Assembly (NCBI GenBank): GCA_003214315.1
Contig: QCLU01000001.1
Span: 124,001-188,000 of the forward strand
Direction of reading: 5' to 3'
Length of the DNA: 64,000 bases
Source: Prochlorococcus sp. AG-418-D13
Lineage (GTDB): Bacteria > Cyanobacteriota > Cyanobacteriia > PCC-6307 > Cyanobiaceae
In this document: piece by piece, positions 13,428 to 59,269 of the stretch
Numbering within the stretch: the stretch's first letter is position 1
How the letters are laid out: each line of letters begins with the position of its first letter
Translations under genes and position numbers: made by a program
Notes under the pieces: generated by a model
Told to the model about the DNA's origin: nothing
The model's database searches: none
The model's input: only the letters and a program-made list of their open reading frames with translations

Positions 13428-14487
13428 GTGAATTGTATAAAATAGCAAGTAATTCTTTTGTTGTTTCTATATCTATGCATGCATCTGTAATGCTTCTGCC
13501 AAACTGGAGATCCTCTTTTTTTAAAAGTTTTTGATTTCCCTCCTTCAAATGACTTTCAAGCATAATTCCTAAAATATTTTTTTCACCATTGCTAATTTGA
13601 GAAGCTATATTTTTTAGAACTTCCGACTGTTTTCGGAAATCTTTATTGGAATTACCATGACTACAATCAATCATCACTTTATGGGTAAGATTAGATTGCT
13701 GTAATTCAGAAGAAATTCTTTTAACGTGATCACTTGCAAAATTTGGGCCTTTTGAACCGCCTCTTAAAACTATATGTCCATCTGGATTACCTGTTGTATT
13801 AACAATAGAAGCCATTCCATTTTCATTTACACCTAAGAAATGATGAGATTTTGAAGCTGACTGCATTGCATTTATTGCAGTAGTAAAAGAACCATCTGTG
13901 CCATTTTTAAAACCTATAGGCATTGATAATCCTGATGCCATTTCTCGATGAGTCTGACTTTCAGTAGTCCGCGCGCCTATGGCTGTCCAACTTATTAAAT
14001 CGGCAATATATTGAGGAACAATTGGATCTAATAATTCTGTAGCAGAAGGAATTCCACGAGTTGCTAAATATGAAAGCAAACTTCTTGCCCTTCTTAAACC
14101 AGTATTAATATCATAAGAATTATCTAGATGAGGATCATTTATCAATCCCTTCCAACCAATAGTTGTTCTTGGTTTCTCAAAATATACTCTCATGATTATT
14201 TCTAATTTATCTTTATAAATTTCTCGAAAGTTTTGAATATATTTTGAATATTCCTTTGCCGCCTCTAGATCATGAATTGAACATGGACCCACAATGACTA
14301 AAAGTTTCTGATCATTATGATGCAAAATATTTTGTATCGATCTTCTTGTTTTAGATACTGTATTAGCAGAGGCGTGATCTAAAGGTATATCATTATGTAA
14401 TCTGCTTGGAGGTATTAATGGACGTGTCTCAACAACATGTAAATCTGATGTTTTTTCTAAAGCAGAATTATTTGATGATGTCTTCAT
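13420..14487 (-). CDS. 3-deoxy-7-phosphoheptulonate synthase, class I (AroFGH type)
   Basis: The 355-residue enzyme condenses phosphoenolpyruvate with erythrose 4-phosphate, the first step of the shikimate pathway. Family blocks seen are VETRPLIPPSRLH, VIVGPCSIHD, MRVYFEKPRTTIGWKGL with the PEP-binding KPRT, ARTTESQTHREMASG and IDCSHGNSNK with a metal-site histidine. It is the microbial short form related to E. coli AroF/G/H, whose members are inhibited by Phe, Tyr or Trp; which one applies here is unknown. aroE, a later pathway step, is 8 kb away. The gene is divergent from acnB across a 97-base gap. Confidence 0.94.
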   Translation of the reverse strand: MKTSSNNSALEKTSDLHVVETRPLIPPSRLHNDIPLDHASANTVSKTRRSIQNILHHNDQKLLVIVGPCSIHDLEAAKEYSKYIQNFREIYKDKLEIIMRVYFEKPRTTIGWKGLINDPHLDNSYDINTGLRRARSLLSYLATRGIPSATELLDPIVPQYIADLISWTAIGARTTESQTHREMASGLSMPIGFKNGTDGSFTTAINAMQSASKSHHFLGVNENGMASIVNTTGNPDGHIVLRGGSKGPNFASDHVKRISSELQQSNLTHKVMIDCSHGNSNKDFRKQSEVLKNIASQISNGEKNILGIMLESHLKEGNQKLLKKEDLQFGRSITDACIDIETTKELLAILYNSLS

Positions 14488-31566: not shown

Positions 31567-33246
31567 TTATGCAGCTTCCCTGTCAATAAGTCTAGAAGCG
31601 AAATCATTTGCTTCACCAAACCCTCCCCCAATAAGTTCTACTAATTCATTTTTTCTTTGTTTTTTTGTAGTTAATTTCAATATTGAAGTATAAGTAATTC
31701 CATTAATTACATTTTTAACAACTTTAAAGTGAGCTAATCCTCCAGCCGCTAAAAAAGGCTGATGGGTAATACATAAAACTTGTTGATCTTGAGATATATC
31801 TTTTATTAATCTAACCAAAGAAAATAAAGATTTACCACTTAAGCCATTATCAATTTCATCTAAAAAGAAAGTATTAGGTTTTTTAGAAATACTAGATTTT
31901 ATCGCTAATAAGAATCTTGACATTTCTCCACCAGAAATAACATTTGATAGAGGAGCAAGCTTCTGATCAGGATTAGCCGAAAACAAAAAATTTATATTGT
32001 CAATTCCATCAACAGAAGGCTGGCCTTCAGAAAATTGAATTGAAAAATTTGCATTTTCTAAACCTAAATTGCTTAAAATTAGCATTACTGAATTTTGCAA
32101 CTTTCTAGCAGTTTTTTTTCTTTCAGTAGATTGAATAACAAATAAATGATTTAAATTAGTTTGTAAATTTTCAATTTGAGCTTTAATCTTGCAAATCTCA
32201 TTACCTTGATCATTTTGTTGAAAATAAGTCTTTAATTGATCACGCTTTTCAATTAATTGAGATAACTCCAATGAAAAAGTTCTCTCCAAGTTTTTTAAAA
32301 AAAATAATCTTTTTTGTATTTCCGGAAGATTAGATTCATAATTTTCTATATCTTGCAAATATGAGTTTAAAACAAAAATTAAATCTTCAACATCAGCATA
32401 AATATTTAATAACTTCTCTCTAAATTTTTGAATCTTTAAATCGAAATCTGCTGTTTTATTCAAAATTTTTATTGATTGATTAATCAAAGACGTTACTGAT
32501 GGTTCATCATGACTAAAATTATTTAAAATTTCTAGTGATGATTTAATTGAATTATTAATTTCGAGATTATTTACCAGTTTATTTTCTAATACCTCTAATT
32601 CTAAAATTTCTTCACTGGAATTTAATTCAGCTTCTTCTAAACTCTTCAACATTTGTTTAATTATCAAGTTGTTTTTTTGTTGATTCCTAGAAGATTCTAT
32701 TTTTTCATTCATTAATCCTTTTAAAACTACACTTTCTCTCCATGTTTTTTTAATCCTTTCTCTAGTATCTTTCAATTCTTGAGAACATAAGTCATCAATA
32801 ATTAATCTTCTCTTTTCTAAAGAATCAAAGATAAAAGTATCAAACTGACCTGCGAAATCTATTAAAAATAGACCTAGTTTTTCTAATAATTGTTTATGAA
32901 TTGAGCAATTATTAAGGCTATATTTGGATAAAATTTTATTATTTTTTTTATATGATTTTCTTTTAATTTTTAGTTCTGAAGAATTTATTTCAAAGCCATT
33001 ACTAATTAACCAATTATTAATTTGGGAAGAAGAAGAAAATATTGCCTCAATAACGCAAAAATCTTTGCCTGGACGGATTAAATGTTTTAGAGGTATATTA
33101 GTTCCACCAAATAAAGCATTTAGGGAATCCAAAATTAGTGATTTTCCTGAACCTGAATCCCCAGTTATGATATTCAAACCTTTTTCGAAATTAATTTCTA
33201 TAATTTCTATTAAGGCAATGTTTTCTATTTTTAGTTGTATTAACAT
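31567..33246 (-). CDS. recN: DNA repair protein RecN
   Basis: RecN is an SMC-like ATPase that acts in double-strand break repair. The 559-residue protein begins MLIQLKIENIALIE and has Walker A ITGDSGSGKSLILDSL at 27-42. A long coiled-coil region spans about 150-390, rich in Glu, Lys, Leu and Asn. The C-terminal half-site has VISGGEMSRFLLAIKS (signature) and FFLDEIDNGLSG (Walker B), then CITHQPFLAA. Length is normal for RecN. It is divergent from the ABC1 kinase gene and upstream of uvrA on the same strand. Confidence 0.95.
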   Translation of the reverse strand: MLIQLKIENIALIEIIEINFEKGLNIITGDSGSGKSLILDSLNALFGGTNIPLKHLIRPGKDFCVIEAIFSSSSQINNWLISNGFEINSSELKIKRKSYKKNNKILSKYSLNNCSIHKQLLEKLGLFLIDFAGQFDTFIFDSLEKRRLIIDDLCSQELKDTRERIKKTWRESVVLKGLMNEKIESSRNQQKNNLIIKQMLKSLEEAELNSSEEILELEVLENKLVNNLEINNSIKSSLEILNNFSHDEPSVTSLINQSIKILNKTADFDLKIQKFREKLLNIYADVEDLIFVLNSYLQDIENYESNLPEIQKRLFFLKNLERTFSLELSQLIEKRDQLKTYFQQNDQGNEICKIKAQIENLQTNLNHLFVIQSTERKKTARKLQNSVMLILSNLGLENANFSIQFSEGQPSVDGIDNINFLFSANPDQKLAPLSNVISGGEMSRFLLAIKSSISKKPNTFFLDEIDNGLSGKSLFSLVRLIKDISQDQQVLCITHQPFLAAGGLAHFKVVKNVINGITYTSILKLTTKKQRKNELVELIGGGFGEANDFASRLIDREAA

Positions 33247-35751: not shown

Positions 35752-36855
35752 ATGGTGTTATTAAATAAAATCAAAAATAAACTACGTATTAATTACAGAA
35801 AAAAAAGTTGGCCAGGTCTAATCGAAGCATACAAGCAATATCTCCCAGTTACAAAGAAAACTCCTATTGTTTCCCTCAATGAAGGAAATACCCCACTAAT
35901 TCTAAGCGAGTCAATTAGCAATTTAATTGGAAATGGGACAAAAGTTTTCTTAAAATATGATGGCCTTAATCCAACAGGATCTTTTAAAGATCGTGGAATG
36001 ACTATGGCAATTAGCAAAGCAAAAGAAGAAGGCCGTGAAGCAGTAATTTGTGCAAGTACTGGAAACACTTCTGCAGCTGCAGCTGCATATGCTTCTAGAG
36101 GAGGATTAAAACCTTATGTTCTAATCCCAGAAGGATTTGTTGCACAAGGAAAGCTTGCGCAAGCTTTAATGTATGGCGCTGAGATAATATCTATTAATGG
36201 AAACTTTGATAAAGCTCTTGAAATTGTTAGAGATTTATCCTCAGAACATCCTGTAGAACTTGTTAATTCTGTTAATCCATATCGTATACAAGGACAAAAG
36301 ACAGCAGCTTTTGAAATAGTTGATGACTTAGGTATTGCTCCTGATTGGCTTTGTATTCCAATGGGCAATGCAGGAAATATAACTGCTTACTGGATGGGAT
36401 TTAAAGAATATTCAAAAATAAAAAGAAATTCAAAATTACCAATTATGATGGGTTTTCAATCAGAAGGCTCTGCTCCATTAGTTAAAAATATAATAGTTAA
36501 AGATCCTGAAACAATTGCAACAGCAATAAGAATTGGGAATCCTGTAAATAGAGAAAAAGCAAAAAAAGTAAGAAAAGAAAGTAAAGGAGACTTTCAGTCA
36601 GTTACAGACGAAGAAATAATAAATGCTTATAAAATCCTGGCTAAAGAAGGAGTCTTTTGTGAACCTGCAAGTGCAGCATCTGTTGCAGGACTTATAAAAA
36701 ATAGAAATAGAATTCAGAAAGAATCTACAATTGTTTGTGTTCTTACTGGAAATGGCTTAAAAGATCCTGATTGCGCCATAAAAAACAATGAGGCTATTTT
36801 TAGGAAAAATATTGAACCTTCATTAAAAAATATAACTAAAATTTTAGGATATTAA
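35752..36855 (+). CDS. thrC: Threonine synthase
   Basis: ThrC converts O-phosphohomoserine to threonine with PLP. The 367-residue fold-type II protein has [14 protein letters not shown] at the substrate end, [11 protein letters not shown] with PLP-binding Lys79, [19 protein letters not shown] (phosphate loop and neighbouring helix) and [15 protein letters not shown]. Length fits the short bacterial class. The ATG at 35752 lies 6 bases after the DUF1400 stop. A weak hairpin, ACAAT with ATTGT, follows the stop at about 36855-36873. The next 338 bases are the candidate replication origin. Confidence 0.95.
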
Positions 36856-36894
36856 CAATCCAAAAAACATTGTGTCTGTGGAAAATTAATTAAA

Positions 36895-36911
36895 AACAAA
36901 CATCGTTTGTT
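36895..36911. repeat. Perfect 7-bp hairpin in the origin region
   Basis: AACAAAC (36895-36901) is followed by ATC and then GTTTGTT (36905-36911), a perfect 7-bp stem with a 3-base loop. Its 3' arm runs into the first TTTGTTGAA element. Confidence 0.6.
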
Positions 36912-36989
36912 GAAAATTACATAAAAAGTAATTCTATTTGTTGAATAGTTATTTCTTCATCCGAAAAATATAAATTTATTCAACAAATA
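36906..36989. repeat. Iteron-like TTTGTTGAA elements and 13-bp inverted repeat
   Basis: The 9-mer TTTGTTGAA occurs at 36906-36914 and 36937-36945, and inverted (TTCAACAAA) at 36979-36987. The last two lie inside a perfect 13-bp inverted repeat, TATTTGTTGAATA (36935-36947) and TATTCAACAAATA (36977-36989), with 29 bases between the arms. The two DnaA-type boxes flank the set on either side. Confidence 0.7.
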
Positions 36990-37193
36990 AAAAATTTTTT
37001 CCACATATATTAATCTTCGTAAAGTAAGTAGATAAGCTTGTAAATTTAAGAATTCCACAGTTCCCACAATAACTACTATTACTAAGTATTTATTTTATTA
37101 TTTATCTTATATTAGAAAAAAGAAGAAAAAATAATTTATTGAATTTAATTTGCGAAAAAAGTATATTGTATTTGTAAAAAGTCCCAAATTCCG

Positions 37194-38351
37194 ATGGATA
37201 TTATTTGTAATCAAAATGAATTAAATAATGCTATACAACTAGTGAGCAAAGCAGTTGCTACAAGACCAACGCATCCCATTCTTTCAAATATACTTTTAAC
37301 AGCTGACGAAGGAACCAATAAAATTAGCTTGACAGGATTTGACCTTAACTTAGGTATTCAAACTTCTTTTGATGGAACTGTCACAAATAGTGGAGCTATT
37401 ACTATACCTTCAAAACTTTTATCTGAAATAGTAAACAAACTACCCAATGAAACCCCTGTCTCTTTAGAAGTTGACGGGAATTCAGATAATATTTTAATAA
37501 AAAGTGATAGAGGTTCTTTTAATCTCAAAGGGATCCCCTCTGATGAATATCCTAATTTACCATTTGTTGAATGTGGTACTTCTTTGAATATTGATCCAAG
37601 TTCTTTTTTAAAAGCTTTAAAATCAACTATTTTTGCCAGTAGTAATGATGACTCAAAGCAATTACTCACAGGTGTCAATTTCTCATTCAAACCAAATTAT
37701 TTAGAGTCTGCTTCTACAGATGGTCATAGATTGGCTGTTGCTTTAATTGACAACGAGGAAAATATAGAAAATAAAGAAAACTTACCTTCAAATGATGGGG
37801 ACTTGTCAGTCACTATTCCAACTAGATCATTAAGAGAAATTGAAAAATTAGTATCTTTGAGAAGCTCAGAAAATTCAATAAAGCTTTTCTATGACAAAGG
37901 TCAGGTAGTATTTATTTCTTCTAATCAAATAATTACGACAAGAACCCTTGAAGGTACTTATCCTAATTATTCCCAATTAATTCCTGATAATTTTTCTAAG
38001 ATTCTGAATTTTAATACAAAAAAATTAATTGATGCATTAGAAAGAATTGCTGTTTTAGCTGATCAGCAAAGTAGTGTTGTCAAGATTAAATTAGATAATA
38101 CAGATTTAGCTTCTATAAGTGCAGATGCTCAAGATATTGGAAATGCAAATGAATTAATACCTGTTGCTTATTCTGGAGAAAATTTTGATATTGCATTTAA
38201 TGTTAGATATCTTTTAGAAGGTTTAAAAGTTATTCCTTCTGAAAATGTACTTTTAAAGTGTAATATTGCAACTACTCCAGCTGTTTTTGTACCAGAAGAT
38301 AATTTAAATTCTTTTACCTATCTAGTTATGCCCGTGCAGGTTCGTTCTTAA
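37194..38351 (+). CDS. dnaN: DNA polymerase III beta subunit (sliding clamp)
   Basis: DnaN forms the ring clamp that tethers the replicative polymerase. The 385-residue protein begins MDIICNQNELNNAIQLVSKAV and has three similar clamp domains, with TRPTHPILSNILL, LTGFDLNLGI, KGIPSDEYP, STDGHRLAV and LEGTYPNYSQLIP in the usual order. The C-terminus YLVMPVQVRS carries the conserved VMPVR-type end that binds partners. It is the first gene after the candidate origin. A PRC-barrel gene follows 1 base after the stop, then purL and purF. Confidence 0.98.
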   Translation: MDIICNQNELNNAIQLVSKAVATRPTHPILSNILLTADEGTNKISLTGFDLNLGIQTSFDGTVTNSGAITIPSKLLSEIVNKLPNETPVSLEVDGNSDNILIKSDRGSFNLKGIPSDEYPNLPFVECGTSLNIDPSSFLKALKSTIFASSNDDSKQLLTGVNFSFKPNYLESASTDGHRLAVALIDNEENIENKENLPSNDGDLSVTIPTRSLREIEKLVSLRSSENSIKLFYDKGQVVFISSNQIITTRTLEGTYPNYSQLIPDNFSKILNFNTKKLIDALERIAVLADQQSSVVKIKLDNTDLASISADAQDIGNANELIPVAYSGENFDIAFNVRYLLEGLKVIPSENVLLKCNIATTPAVFVPEDNLNSFTYLVMPVQVRS

Positions 38352-48807: not shown

Positions 48808-50019
48808 ATGAATAATACCGATTCTGATAATTCTCGTGAGTGGGCTGCACAAGCTTATGCACTTTTAAAAAAAAGACAGGAAGAGCAAAAGCAAGAATTA
48901 CAGAAACAGGAAGAGCAAAAGCAAGAATTACAGAAACAGGAAGAGCAAAAGCAAGAATTGTCCGATATTCCTGGACAGTCTAAAACTATTGCTGAACCTG
49001 AATTAGGAGAATTTGATGATAACTTTACTTGGTCTGCAATGGTATTAGCTGCACAAGGAAAAAATATAAATCAAATATCTATTGATGAAATTGATTGGTT
49101 AACTAAATTACGAAGAGGATTAGAAGAAACCCGAAAAGGATTTGTTACTGAATTATTGGATAAATTAGGAGATGATCCTCTTACACCTGAATCTCTTGAT
49201 GATTTAGAAACTCTATTAATAAGAGCTGATGTAGGGATTGATTCAACTGATAAAGTTATCAGTTCTCTTAGAACAAAATTAAACGAGGAAGTAGTGGGTG
49301 GAGAAGCAGGAATAGAATTTTTGAAGAAGGAATTAAAATTAATTATCGATAAACCAATAAAAAATTCGGGTACTGATCTTTTAGTTCCCCAAAAAGGTAA
49401 GTTAAATGTTTGGTTATTAGTAGGAGTTAATGGTGTTGGTAAAACTACCACATTAGGAAAATTAGCATATTTGTCATCAAAAAGTAATTATAAAACTTTG
49501 ATAGCTGCTGCTGATACATTTAGAGCGGCTGCTGTAGAACAACTTACAGTGTGGGGAGATAGAAGTAATGTCGAAGTTATATCTAATAAATCAAAAAATG
49601 CTGATCCAGCTGCTGTAGTCTTTGATGCAATTAATTCTGCAATAAAAAGAAATGTTGATTTATTACTTGTTGACACAGCGGGTAGATTGCAAACAAAAAA
49701 TAATTTGATGGATGAATTAGCAAAAATAAAAAAAATTATTGATAAAAAGGTCCCAGATGCAATTGTTGAATCATTATTAGTTTTAGATGCAAGTCAGGGT
49801 CAAAATGGCTTAAAGCAAGCAAAAAGTTTCGCTAAATCGGCAGATTTAAGTGGAGCAATTATTACTAAATTAGATGGGACTTCTCGAGGAGGCGTTTCTT
49901 TAGCTGTATCTGAAGAAGTAAATTTACCTATAAGGTTTATTGGAGCTGGAGAAGGTATAAAAGATTTGAGACCATTTAATAGTTATGAATTTGTAGAGGC
50001 TATGCTTGCAGATAAATAA
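48808..50019 (+). CDS. ftsY: Signal recognition particle receptor FtsY
   Basis: FtsY is the membrane-side GTPase that receives SRP-ribosome complexes. The 403-residue protein has an acidic/glutamine-rich N-terminal region (1-100), a helical N domain (about 100-195) and the G domain with GVNGVGKTT at 206-214, DTFRAAAVEQL, LVDTAGRLQTK and TKLDGTSRGG. The N-terminal region contains three copies of a 10-residue Lys-Gln-Glu repeat, encoded by a perfect 30-base tandem unit. Length fits cyanobacterial FtsY apart from this repeat. It lies after nusB and before a phosphatase gene. Confidence 0.95.
   Translation: MNNTDSDNSREWAAQAYALLKKRQEEQKQELQKQEEQKQELQKQEEQKQELSDIPGQSKTIAEPELGEFDDNFTWSAMVLAAQGKNINQISIDEIDWLTKLRRGLEETRKGFVTELLDKLGDDPLTPESLDDLETLLIRADVGIDSTDKVISSLRTKLNEEVVGGEAGIEFLKKELKLIIDKPIKNSGTDLLVPQKGKLNVWLLVGVNGVGKTTTLGKLAYLSSKSNYKTLIAAADTFRAAAVEQLTVWGDRSNVEVISNKSKNADPAAVVFDAINSAIKRNVDLLLVDTAGRLQTKNNLMDELAKIKKIIDKKVPDAIVESLLVLDASQGQNGLKQAKSFAKSADLSGAIITKLDGTSRGGVSLAVSEEVNLPIRFIGAGEGIKDLRPFNSYEFVEAMLADK
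48871..48960 (+). repeat. 30-bp tandem repeat inside ftsY
   Basis: Three units of 30 bases lie at 48871-48900, 48901-48930 and 48931-48960. Units 2 and 3 differ at one base (the last); unit 1 differs at its first positions. Each encodes ten residues of a KQEEQKQELQ pattern and keeps the frame. Confidence 0.9.
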
Positions 50020-58375: not shown

Positions 58376-59269
58376 TTAGTTAGGATAGTCAAAACCAATC
58401 ATTCTTACTTCCGGTTGCAAAAAAATTCCTTTGTTTTGTAGTACTTTTTGTTGAATTACTGTTATTAATTCATAAATATCTTTTGAACTTGCCGAAGAAG
58501 TGTTAATTATAAAATTTGAATGCATTTTAGAAATTTCTGCACCGCCAATTTTAAATCCCTTTAAACCCATATCATCAATTAATTTTGCTGCATAATTATT
58601 TTCAGGATTTTTAAAAACACTTCCAAAACTTGGTTGATGATATGGCTGTTTTTTTGTTTTTAATTTAAGATTATTTTTGGTTGTTTGAATTAATTGTTCG
58701 AGTTTGCCATTAGGCTCAAAATGTAGTCTTGCACTAATAATTGTCATATCATTTCTTTGAAAAGAACTAAATCTATACTCAAAATTGATATCTTTTTTTT
58801 CAATTTCAAGTTTCTCATGAGTTTTGTTATTTATAACTTTTACGGAAATAAGATTTCTTGCTAGCGATAAATTACTTATGCCAGCATTCATATAAATTGC
58901 ACCTCCTAATGTTCCTGGAATTCCGACAGCCCATTCACCTCCTTGTAATCCATTTTTAGCAAGAGAATTAGATAATGTTGGGAGCATTACACCTGCTTCC
59001 GCTTCAACAATCCCTGAATATGGCTCTATTGTTAGAGATCTCATTTTTTTTGTACACACAACTAAGCCTTTTATGAAAATATTATTTATTAAAAGATTTG
59101 AACCCGCGCCAATTATTTGGCATCTTTGTTTGTTTAAATTAGCCCATTTTATTAGATAAGAAAATTCGTCAATGCTTCTTGGTTCAGCAAAATATTCAGC
59201 TACTCCTCCTACTTTTATAGTTGTATAACTACTTAAATTAAAGTTCTCAGAAAAAATCTTATTATTCAT
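58376..59269 (-). CDS. murB: UDP-N-acetylenolpyruvoylglucosamine reductase
   Basis: MurB reduces UDP-GlcNAc-enolpyruvate to UDP-MurNAc with FAD and NADPH. The 297-residue protein has the FAD-binding [29 protein letters not shown] and, in the C-terminal domain, [20 protein letters not shown] with the catalytic serine, ending in QPEVRMIGF. This is the type II form without the extra loop. It follows murC after 16 bases and precedes ybaB after 17. Confidence 0.95.

Follow-up and report, generated by a model that had tools for sequence, protein, structure and literature searches.

Few photosynthetic organisms are as abundant as Prochlorococcus, and the build of its replication origin bears on the way cyanobacteria begin replication, be it with DnaA or without. 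An earlier study placed the Prochlorococcus oriC between thrC and dnaN (PMC2836286), and another one restates that no DnaA box lies near dnaA in this genus (PMC4674748); a missing box near dnaA and boxes beside dnaN are not in conflict. For the origin of the linear Cyanothece chromosome, the latter study names TTATCAACA as one predicted box, shows protection of the surrounding region by domain IV of DnaA, and reports that this domain binds the imperfect Cyanothece box pair less well than two perfect boxes (PMC4674748). By analogy, this region is a precedent for a CAACA-type box.

Two further systems are of relevance. In E. coli oriC, strong boxes lie on the outside of two arrays of weak sites that face opposite ways, and a change in spacing is tolerated if it amounts to a full helical turn and not if it amounts to part of one (PMC4285127). 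The basal unwinding system (BUS) has been formulated as a DnaA box at most 16 bp from at least three NAN trios, with GAT favoured, and box-plus-trio unwinding by the S. elongatus DnaA was observed in vitro (PMC8287927). The open full-text literature, to the extent that its text was available, returned no description of CAACA boxes or DnaA-trios in Prochlorococcus, nothing matching 'DnaA-trio' with 'Prochlorococcus' and nothing on weak sites combined with helical phase, which is not meant as a claim that such work is unpublished.

The thrC-dnaN region and its 9-mer cluster

The 64-kb stretch of DNA analysed here (the window) stems from a 1.62 Mb assembly of 23 contigs that is 93.9% complete. 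As the initial annotation had described, its thrC-dnaN region contains three copies of the 9-mer TTTGTTGAA within 82 bases, at 36906 (+), 36937 (+) and 36979 (-), spanning 36906-36987. The last two copies do form a perfect 13-bp inverted repeat (36935-36947 / 36977-36989), a 7-bp hairpin is present (arms 36895-36901 / 36905-36911), and DnaA-type boxes of the sequence TTTTCCACA lie on both sides, at 36877 (-) and 36997 (+).

The TTTGTTGAA cluster is beyond chance. In order-3 Markov re-samplings of the window, triple occurrences of any 9-mer (two or more G/C) within at most 84 bases were seen at a mean of 0.017 per re-sampled window (1 cluster in 60), and the real window holds the TTTGTTGAA cluster, a tandem repeat at about 48876-48959 and no others. 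It had been conceded beforehand that a high genome-wide frequency would make three copies unremarkable; together with the re-sampling, the 90 copies in the assembly (44 + 46), compared to 58 for the reversed-pattern control, indicate that overall abundance does not account for their coming together, and no other trio of copies is equally close among the assembly matches listed. The inverted repeat alone is unremarkable (1 observed versus 0.38 expected per window, 100 re-samplings).

Three more copies of the 9-mer lie in the window, at 32214, at 58447 and, within dnaN, at 37563-37571. The copy inside dnaN is kept in 67 of the 80 listed named loci (80 of 184), 77 of which read Pro-Phe-Val-Glu-Ser at this place; it was discarded as an origin element, as the conserved Phe-Val-Glu codons explain it. 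The tandem repeat consists of three near-identical 30-base units (about 48876-48960) in the N-terminal, Gln/Glu/Lys-rich part of an open reading frame at 48808-50019, whose product resembles FtsY by eye.

Read on the opposite strand, TTTGTTGAA is TTCAACA plus two flanking bases, and a shift of two bases turns the three copies into TTTTCAACA, TATTCAACA and TATTCAACA with a CAACA core (S2, S3 and S4 in Table 1). Compared to the cyanobacterial box TTTTCCACA, S2 has one mismatch, A for C at the sixth base, while S3 and S4 have two, this one and A for T at the second base. The ACA end expected of a DnaA box is found in 127 (S2), 127 (S3) and 124 (S4) of 127 distinct sequences from the genus. We consider the TTTGTTGAA copies to be weak, CAACA-core DnaA boxes within a standard DnaA-dependent oriC, with a probability of roughly 0.86 as judged from the sequence. 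With a box matrix trained without S2-S4, S2 ranks 45th and S3/S4 rank 114th of the 127,984 window positions, ranks so modest that the score alone would not single these sites out; with the genus box matrix, which includes S6 and S7, these two rank 4th and 6th.

Table 1. Features of the predicted origin and its flanking genes in the window
Feature	Position	Strand	Basis or remark
thrC	35752-36855		TIGR00260
thrC-dnaN intergenic region, putative chromosomal origin (oriC)	36856-37193	.	flanking genes; PMC2836286
S1, predicted DnaA box TTTTCCACA	36877-36885	-	CCACA core in 127/127 distinct sequences
S2, putative weak DnaA box TTTTCAACA	36908-36916	-	inside first TTTGTTGAA copy; CAACA core 113/127
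S3, putative weak DnaA box TATTCAACA	36939-36947	-	second TTTGTTGAA copy, left arm of inverted repeat; CAACA core 93/127
S4, putative weak DnaA box TATTCAACA	36977-36985	+	third TTTGTTGAA copy, right arm of inverted repeat; CAACA core 96/127
13-bp inverted repeat, 29-base spacer	36935-36989	.	probable by-product of two opposed TATTCAACA boxes
S5, predicted DnaA box TTTTCCACA	36997-37005	+	core variable within genus
S6, predicted DnaA box AATTCCACA	37051-37059	+	first of tandem pair; CCACA 122/127
S7, predicted DnaA box GTTCCCACA	37060-37068	+	second of tandem pair; CCACA 116/127
DnaA-trio tract CTACTATTACTA (complement 3'-GATGATAATGAT-5')	37073-37084	+	putative unwinding start; AT-rich DNA after
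dnaN	37194-38351		TIGR00663

Other properties of the region, the GC skew aside, are in line with an origin. It is intergenic and lies beside dnaN, its layout recurs in the 127 distinct genus sequences, and it holds two exact copies of TTTTCCACA 120 bp apart; in the whole assembly exact TTTTCCACA occurs 24 times, as does the reversed control, which is no genome-wide enrichment. Of the seven boxes, S1 to S3 point leftward and S4 to S7 rightward, with start-to-start steps of 31, 31, 38, 20, 54 and 9 bp. The cumulative GC skew, a window-only profile, has its minimum (0.04) at 30-34 kb, near but not at the site, and its peak earlier, at 16-18 kb.

Conservation in the genus and the family

For the genus, 151 genomes were searched and 118 had a dnaN match; from these, 30 loci of a first search and 52 that were fetched, picked for divergence and for upstream DNA being present, were combined with 80 of 184 named dnaN loci (78 from Prochlorococcus and 2 titled Synechococcaceae, the closest named relatives). 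Six of these 162 loci had fewer than 345 bases upstream and were dropped (L016, L030, L071, L091, L115, L129), and the remaining 156 gave the 127 distinct sequences. Boxes were read from ungapped sequence; the MAFFT alignment has a gap in S1 of other rows, and that column is omitted from the conservation values.

The cross-strain alignment that had been suggested as a check on the 9-mer gave a divided result. The places of the boxes and their spacing are kept across the genus, as expected of an element of the origin region, but the exact 9-mer is found at all three places in just 35 of 127 sequences, at one or more in 104 and at none in 23. The steps from S4 to S5 (20 bp) and from S6 to S7 (9 bp) are the same in 127/127; S1-S2 measures 30 bp in 117 and 31 bp in 10, so that the window belongs to the minority, S2-S3 31 bp in 120 and 32 bp in 7, and S5-S6 54 bp in 116, 53 bp in 10 and 52 bp in one, while S3-S4 takes two values one base apart. 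The trio tract reads CTACTACTACTA in 102/127 and begins with CTACTA in 124/127. The commonest base has a mean frequency of 0.89-0.99 in the boxes, 0.98 in the trio tract and 0.74 in other columns. S4 is degraded or misaligned in divergent members, and the core of S5 varies (ACACA 44, TCACA 26, CCACT 23, CCACC 17 and CCACA 14 of 127). Most likely, judging from these alignments, a rigidly spaced seven-box origin between thrC and dnaN is common to the Prochlorococcus relatives.

The part of the 9-mer outside the CAACA boxes, three bases past the end of each, is ordinary, as 30 of 117 background triplets are equally conserved. The sixth base is A or C in nearly all sequences (S2 125, S3 126, S4 126 of 127). 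It departs from A in 25 of 381 cells, 21 of which hold C, 4 T and none G, compared to C in 136 of 871 departures in control columns (Fisher p 2.7e-13, for sequences that are not independent). C occurs in 5 (S2), 6 (S3) and 10 (S4) sequences and completes a full CCACA core in 3, 4 and 2, that is in 9 of the 21 cells. On a thrC tree built quickly from 125 of these sequences, S2, S3 and S4 each need four or more A/C changes. CAACA and canonical boxes thus replace one another at the S2-S4 places, as seen in the genus cells, in the tree and in other genera.

Of 68 matches in those other genera of the family, 40 sequences were fetched; 8 had a weak trio anchor and were left out, so that positions relative to the trio are given for the other 32. 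A box was counted if it had at most one mismatch to TTTTCCACA or TTTTCAACA, and the count for S7 is biased since S7 is part of the anchor. Boxes stand at the S2 distance in 23 of 32 sequences, at that of S5 in 20, S6 in 17, S4 in 11 and S1 in 8, with a shuffle expectation of 0.1-0.3 for each place (0.2 for S2). At the S2 place they are of the CC type, none of the 23 being CAACA. TTTTCAACA occurs in these genera at other box places where sister genera hold CCACA boxes, namely twice at -134 and once each at S5, S7 and -195.

The other genera further show, at about -134 relative to the trio, a box that points rightward (20/32) and, near -112, a leftward one (13/32), and the present genus has the leftward S3 at -134. 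These positions do not agree with simple homology of S3 to an outgroup box, and the origin layout appears to differ between genera.

Candidate binding proteins and rival explanations

The assembly encodes an intact DnaA of 464 aa (TIGR00362, 518.5 bits) on another contig. In its DNA-reading helix stands the motif GGKDHTTV, which lines up with GGRDHTTV of the solved DnaA chain 8btg_A. Among 151 genus genomes, 122 gave a match to the DnaA C-terminal domain, as did 49 of the 51 of good quality. Genome G017 has two matches to this domain on one contig in opposite orientation (G017:C22:3796-3999 and 14172-14375), which could be an assembly duplication. The initial annotation had pointed to DnaA independence in some cyanobacteria; dnaA is intact and nothing in these data points that way. 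The conserved layout argues for placing the lineage on the DnaA-dependent side.

The same annotation had proposed an unknown initiator or regulator as the binding partner of TTTGTTGAA, and more broadly a separate, unnamed origin-binding protein might act with or instead of DnaA. Such a protein could explain why two site classes are maintained, with A at the sixth base mostly in S2-S4 and C mostly in S1, S6 and S7, and why TATTCAACAAAT, as an exact 12-mer, is found nowhere in the assembly but at the two arms of the inverted repeat, and its variants with at most one mismatch are commoner than the reversed pattern (85 versus 39 strand hits). However, the sixth base is A or C with a rare T, and CC-type boxes stand at the S2 position in other genera. 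The motif of an unknown initiator was rejected because conservation tracks the 9-bp DnaA-box frame, with flanking bases that are not special, and because the variable base is A or C, toggling to the C of the canonical box; a separate protein is accordingly regarded as improbable. TATTCAACAAAT as a genome-wide regulon was discarded too, as the assembly has no other exact copy.

Somewhat less probable still is that S2-S4 are sites for a nucleoid protein similar to IHF/HU or Fis, as shape E. coli oriC. The assembly encodes one HU/IHF-family protein, and the E. coli IHF site GATCAACAACCTG and Fis site GAACAACAGTTGTTC both contain CAACA (PMC4285127). Three sites in the DnaA frame at near-fixed spacing are, however, not expected of HU, and a search for a Fis-type HTH_8 protein (PF02954) gave 0 matches in the 93.9% complete assembly; a Fis/IHF-type site was set aside on the strength of these protein searches.

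It is very improbable that the inverted repeat and hairpin work by folding into a cruciform or an RNA structure, e.g., a thrC terminator or dnaN leader. The arms are perfect over 13 bp in this genome and pair on average at 10.9 of 13 positions, compared to 10.1 under arm independence, but they are G+C-poor with 29 bases between them, and their pairing is not conserved, the repeat being perfect in 22 and the hairpin in 5 of 127 sequences. Because of these low counts, both look like by-products and were rejected as a conserved structure; the repeat would arise from two similar boxes facing opposite ways. Just as improbable is shared ancestry alone with neutral repeats, since the whole gap is fairly conserved (0.74 outside the boxes) but the boxes reach 0.89-0.99 at nearly invariant spacing, with a like layout in other genera.

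Proposed mechanism, an off-origin box pair and known systems

If the three sites are weak DnaA boxes, DnaA would nucleate on the strong CCACA boxes and then spread across S2-S4 in two opposed arrays, loading towards the trio. The S6-S7 pair could hand a DnaA-ATP filament to the trio strand, and the AT-rich DNA before dnaN would open. We infer from their sequence that S2-S4 are of low affinity and that this weakness is useful, in that weak boxes would determine the amount of active DnaA required. The same-strand steps of 31, 31, 20 and 54 bp come near whole helical turns by arithmetic at 10.5 bp per turn.

Outside the window, a convergent pair of perfect boxes, TTTTCCACA-N35-TGTGGAAAA, lies at G000:C8:23673-23725 (= L204:1174-1226), upstream of a DUF2811 gene. 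Of 101 genus genomes, 80 have this pattern with a spacer of 20-50 bases (24 of the 29 of good quality), once per matching genome, and none of the 101 has its reverse. It is present in 30 of 81 genomes drawn from the family, three of these 30 belonging to the genus. Of the matching loci 41 were fetched (our own, 20 from the remaining 79 genus genomes with a match and 20 from the 27 of other genera), and in all 41 the spacer measures 34-36 bases with varying sequence and a relative of the DUF2811 protein lies nearby, its match starting 196-297 bases away and reading away from the pair. By eye, a third box-like TGTG-A-run usually stands next to the pair. Seven family matches lie outside the fetched set; the spacer is a different one in three of these (G172, G217, G161), and two (G178, G219) resemble tRNA by eye. 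The distance from the pair to dnaN is 0.17-0.18 of the contig in four genus genomes that consist of one contig (G015, G022, G040, G049). From its sequence and setting, it could be a DnaA-controlled promoter or a control site of the datA/DARS kind, and this box group may be more surprising than the boxes at the origin. A tentative extension, which we hold to be rather doubtful, is that the CAACA boxes are separately selected and kept weak so as to tie origin firing to a fixed level of active DnaA, and that they form, with the box group upstream of DUF2811, a two-site DnaA control circuit of marine picocyanobacteria, similar in logic to oriC plus datA/DARS of E. coli and built from different parts.

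Taken together, the layout would amount to a precise map of how a minimal phototroph builds a DnaA-type origin, with probable strong boxes, weak boxes and an unwinding start. Compared to the accounts available for known systems, it shares with E. coli oriC the strong outer boxes, the weaker inner sites and the two opposed orientations, whereas box sequences and spacing differ and a Fis-type protein was not found in the assembly (PMC4285127). S7 and the trio tract fit the sequence rule of the BUS, and the tandem S6-S7 pair, the 4-base gap, the four CTA-like trios and the AT-rich DNA resemble the BUS of B. subtilis, S. elongatus and others (PMC8287927), with no difference at the level of sequence, the level at which the Prochlorococcus element is known. 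Like the oriC of Anabaena, Cyanothece and S. elongatus (PMC4674748), the region is adjacent to dnaN, has TTTTCCACA boxes and is accompanied by an intact DnaA; unlike them, three of its seven boxes have a CAACA core and occupy fixed positions in most of the genus.
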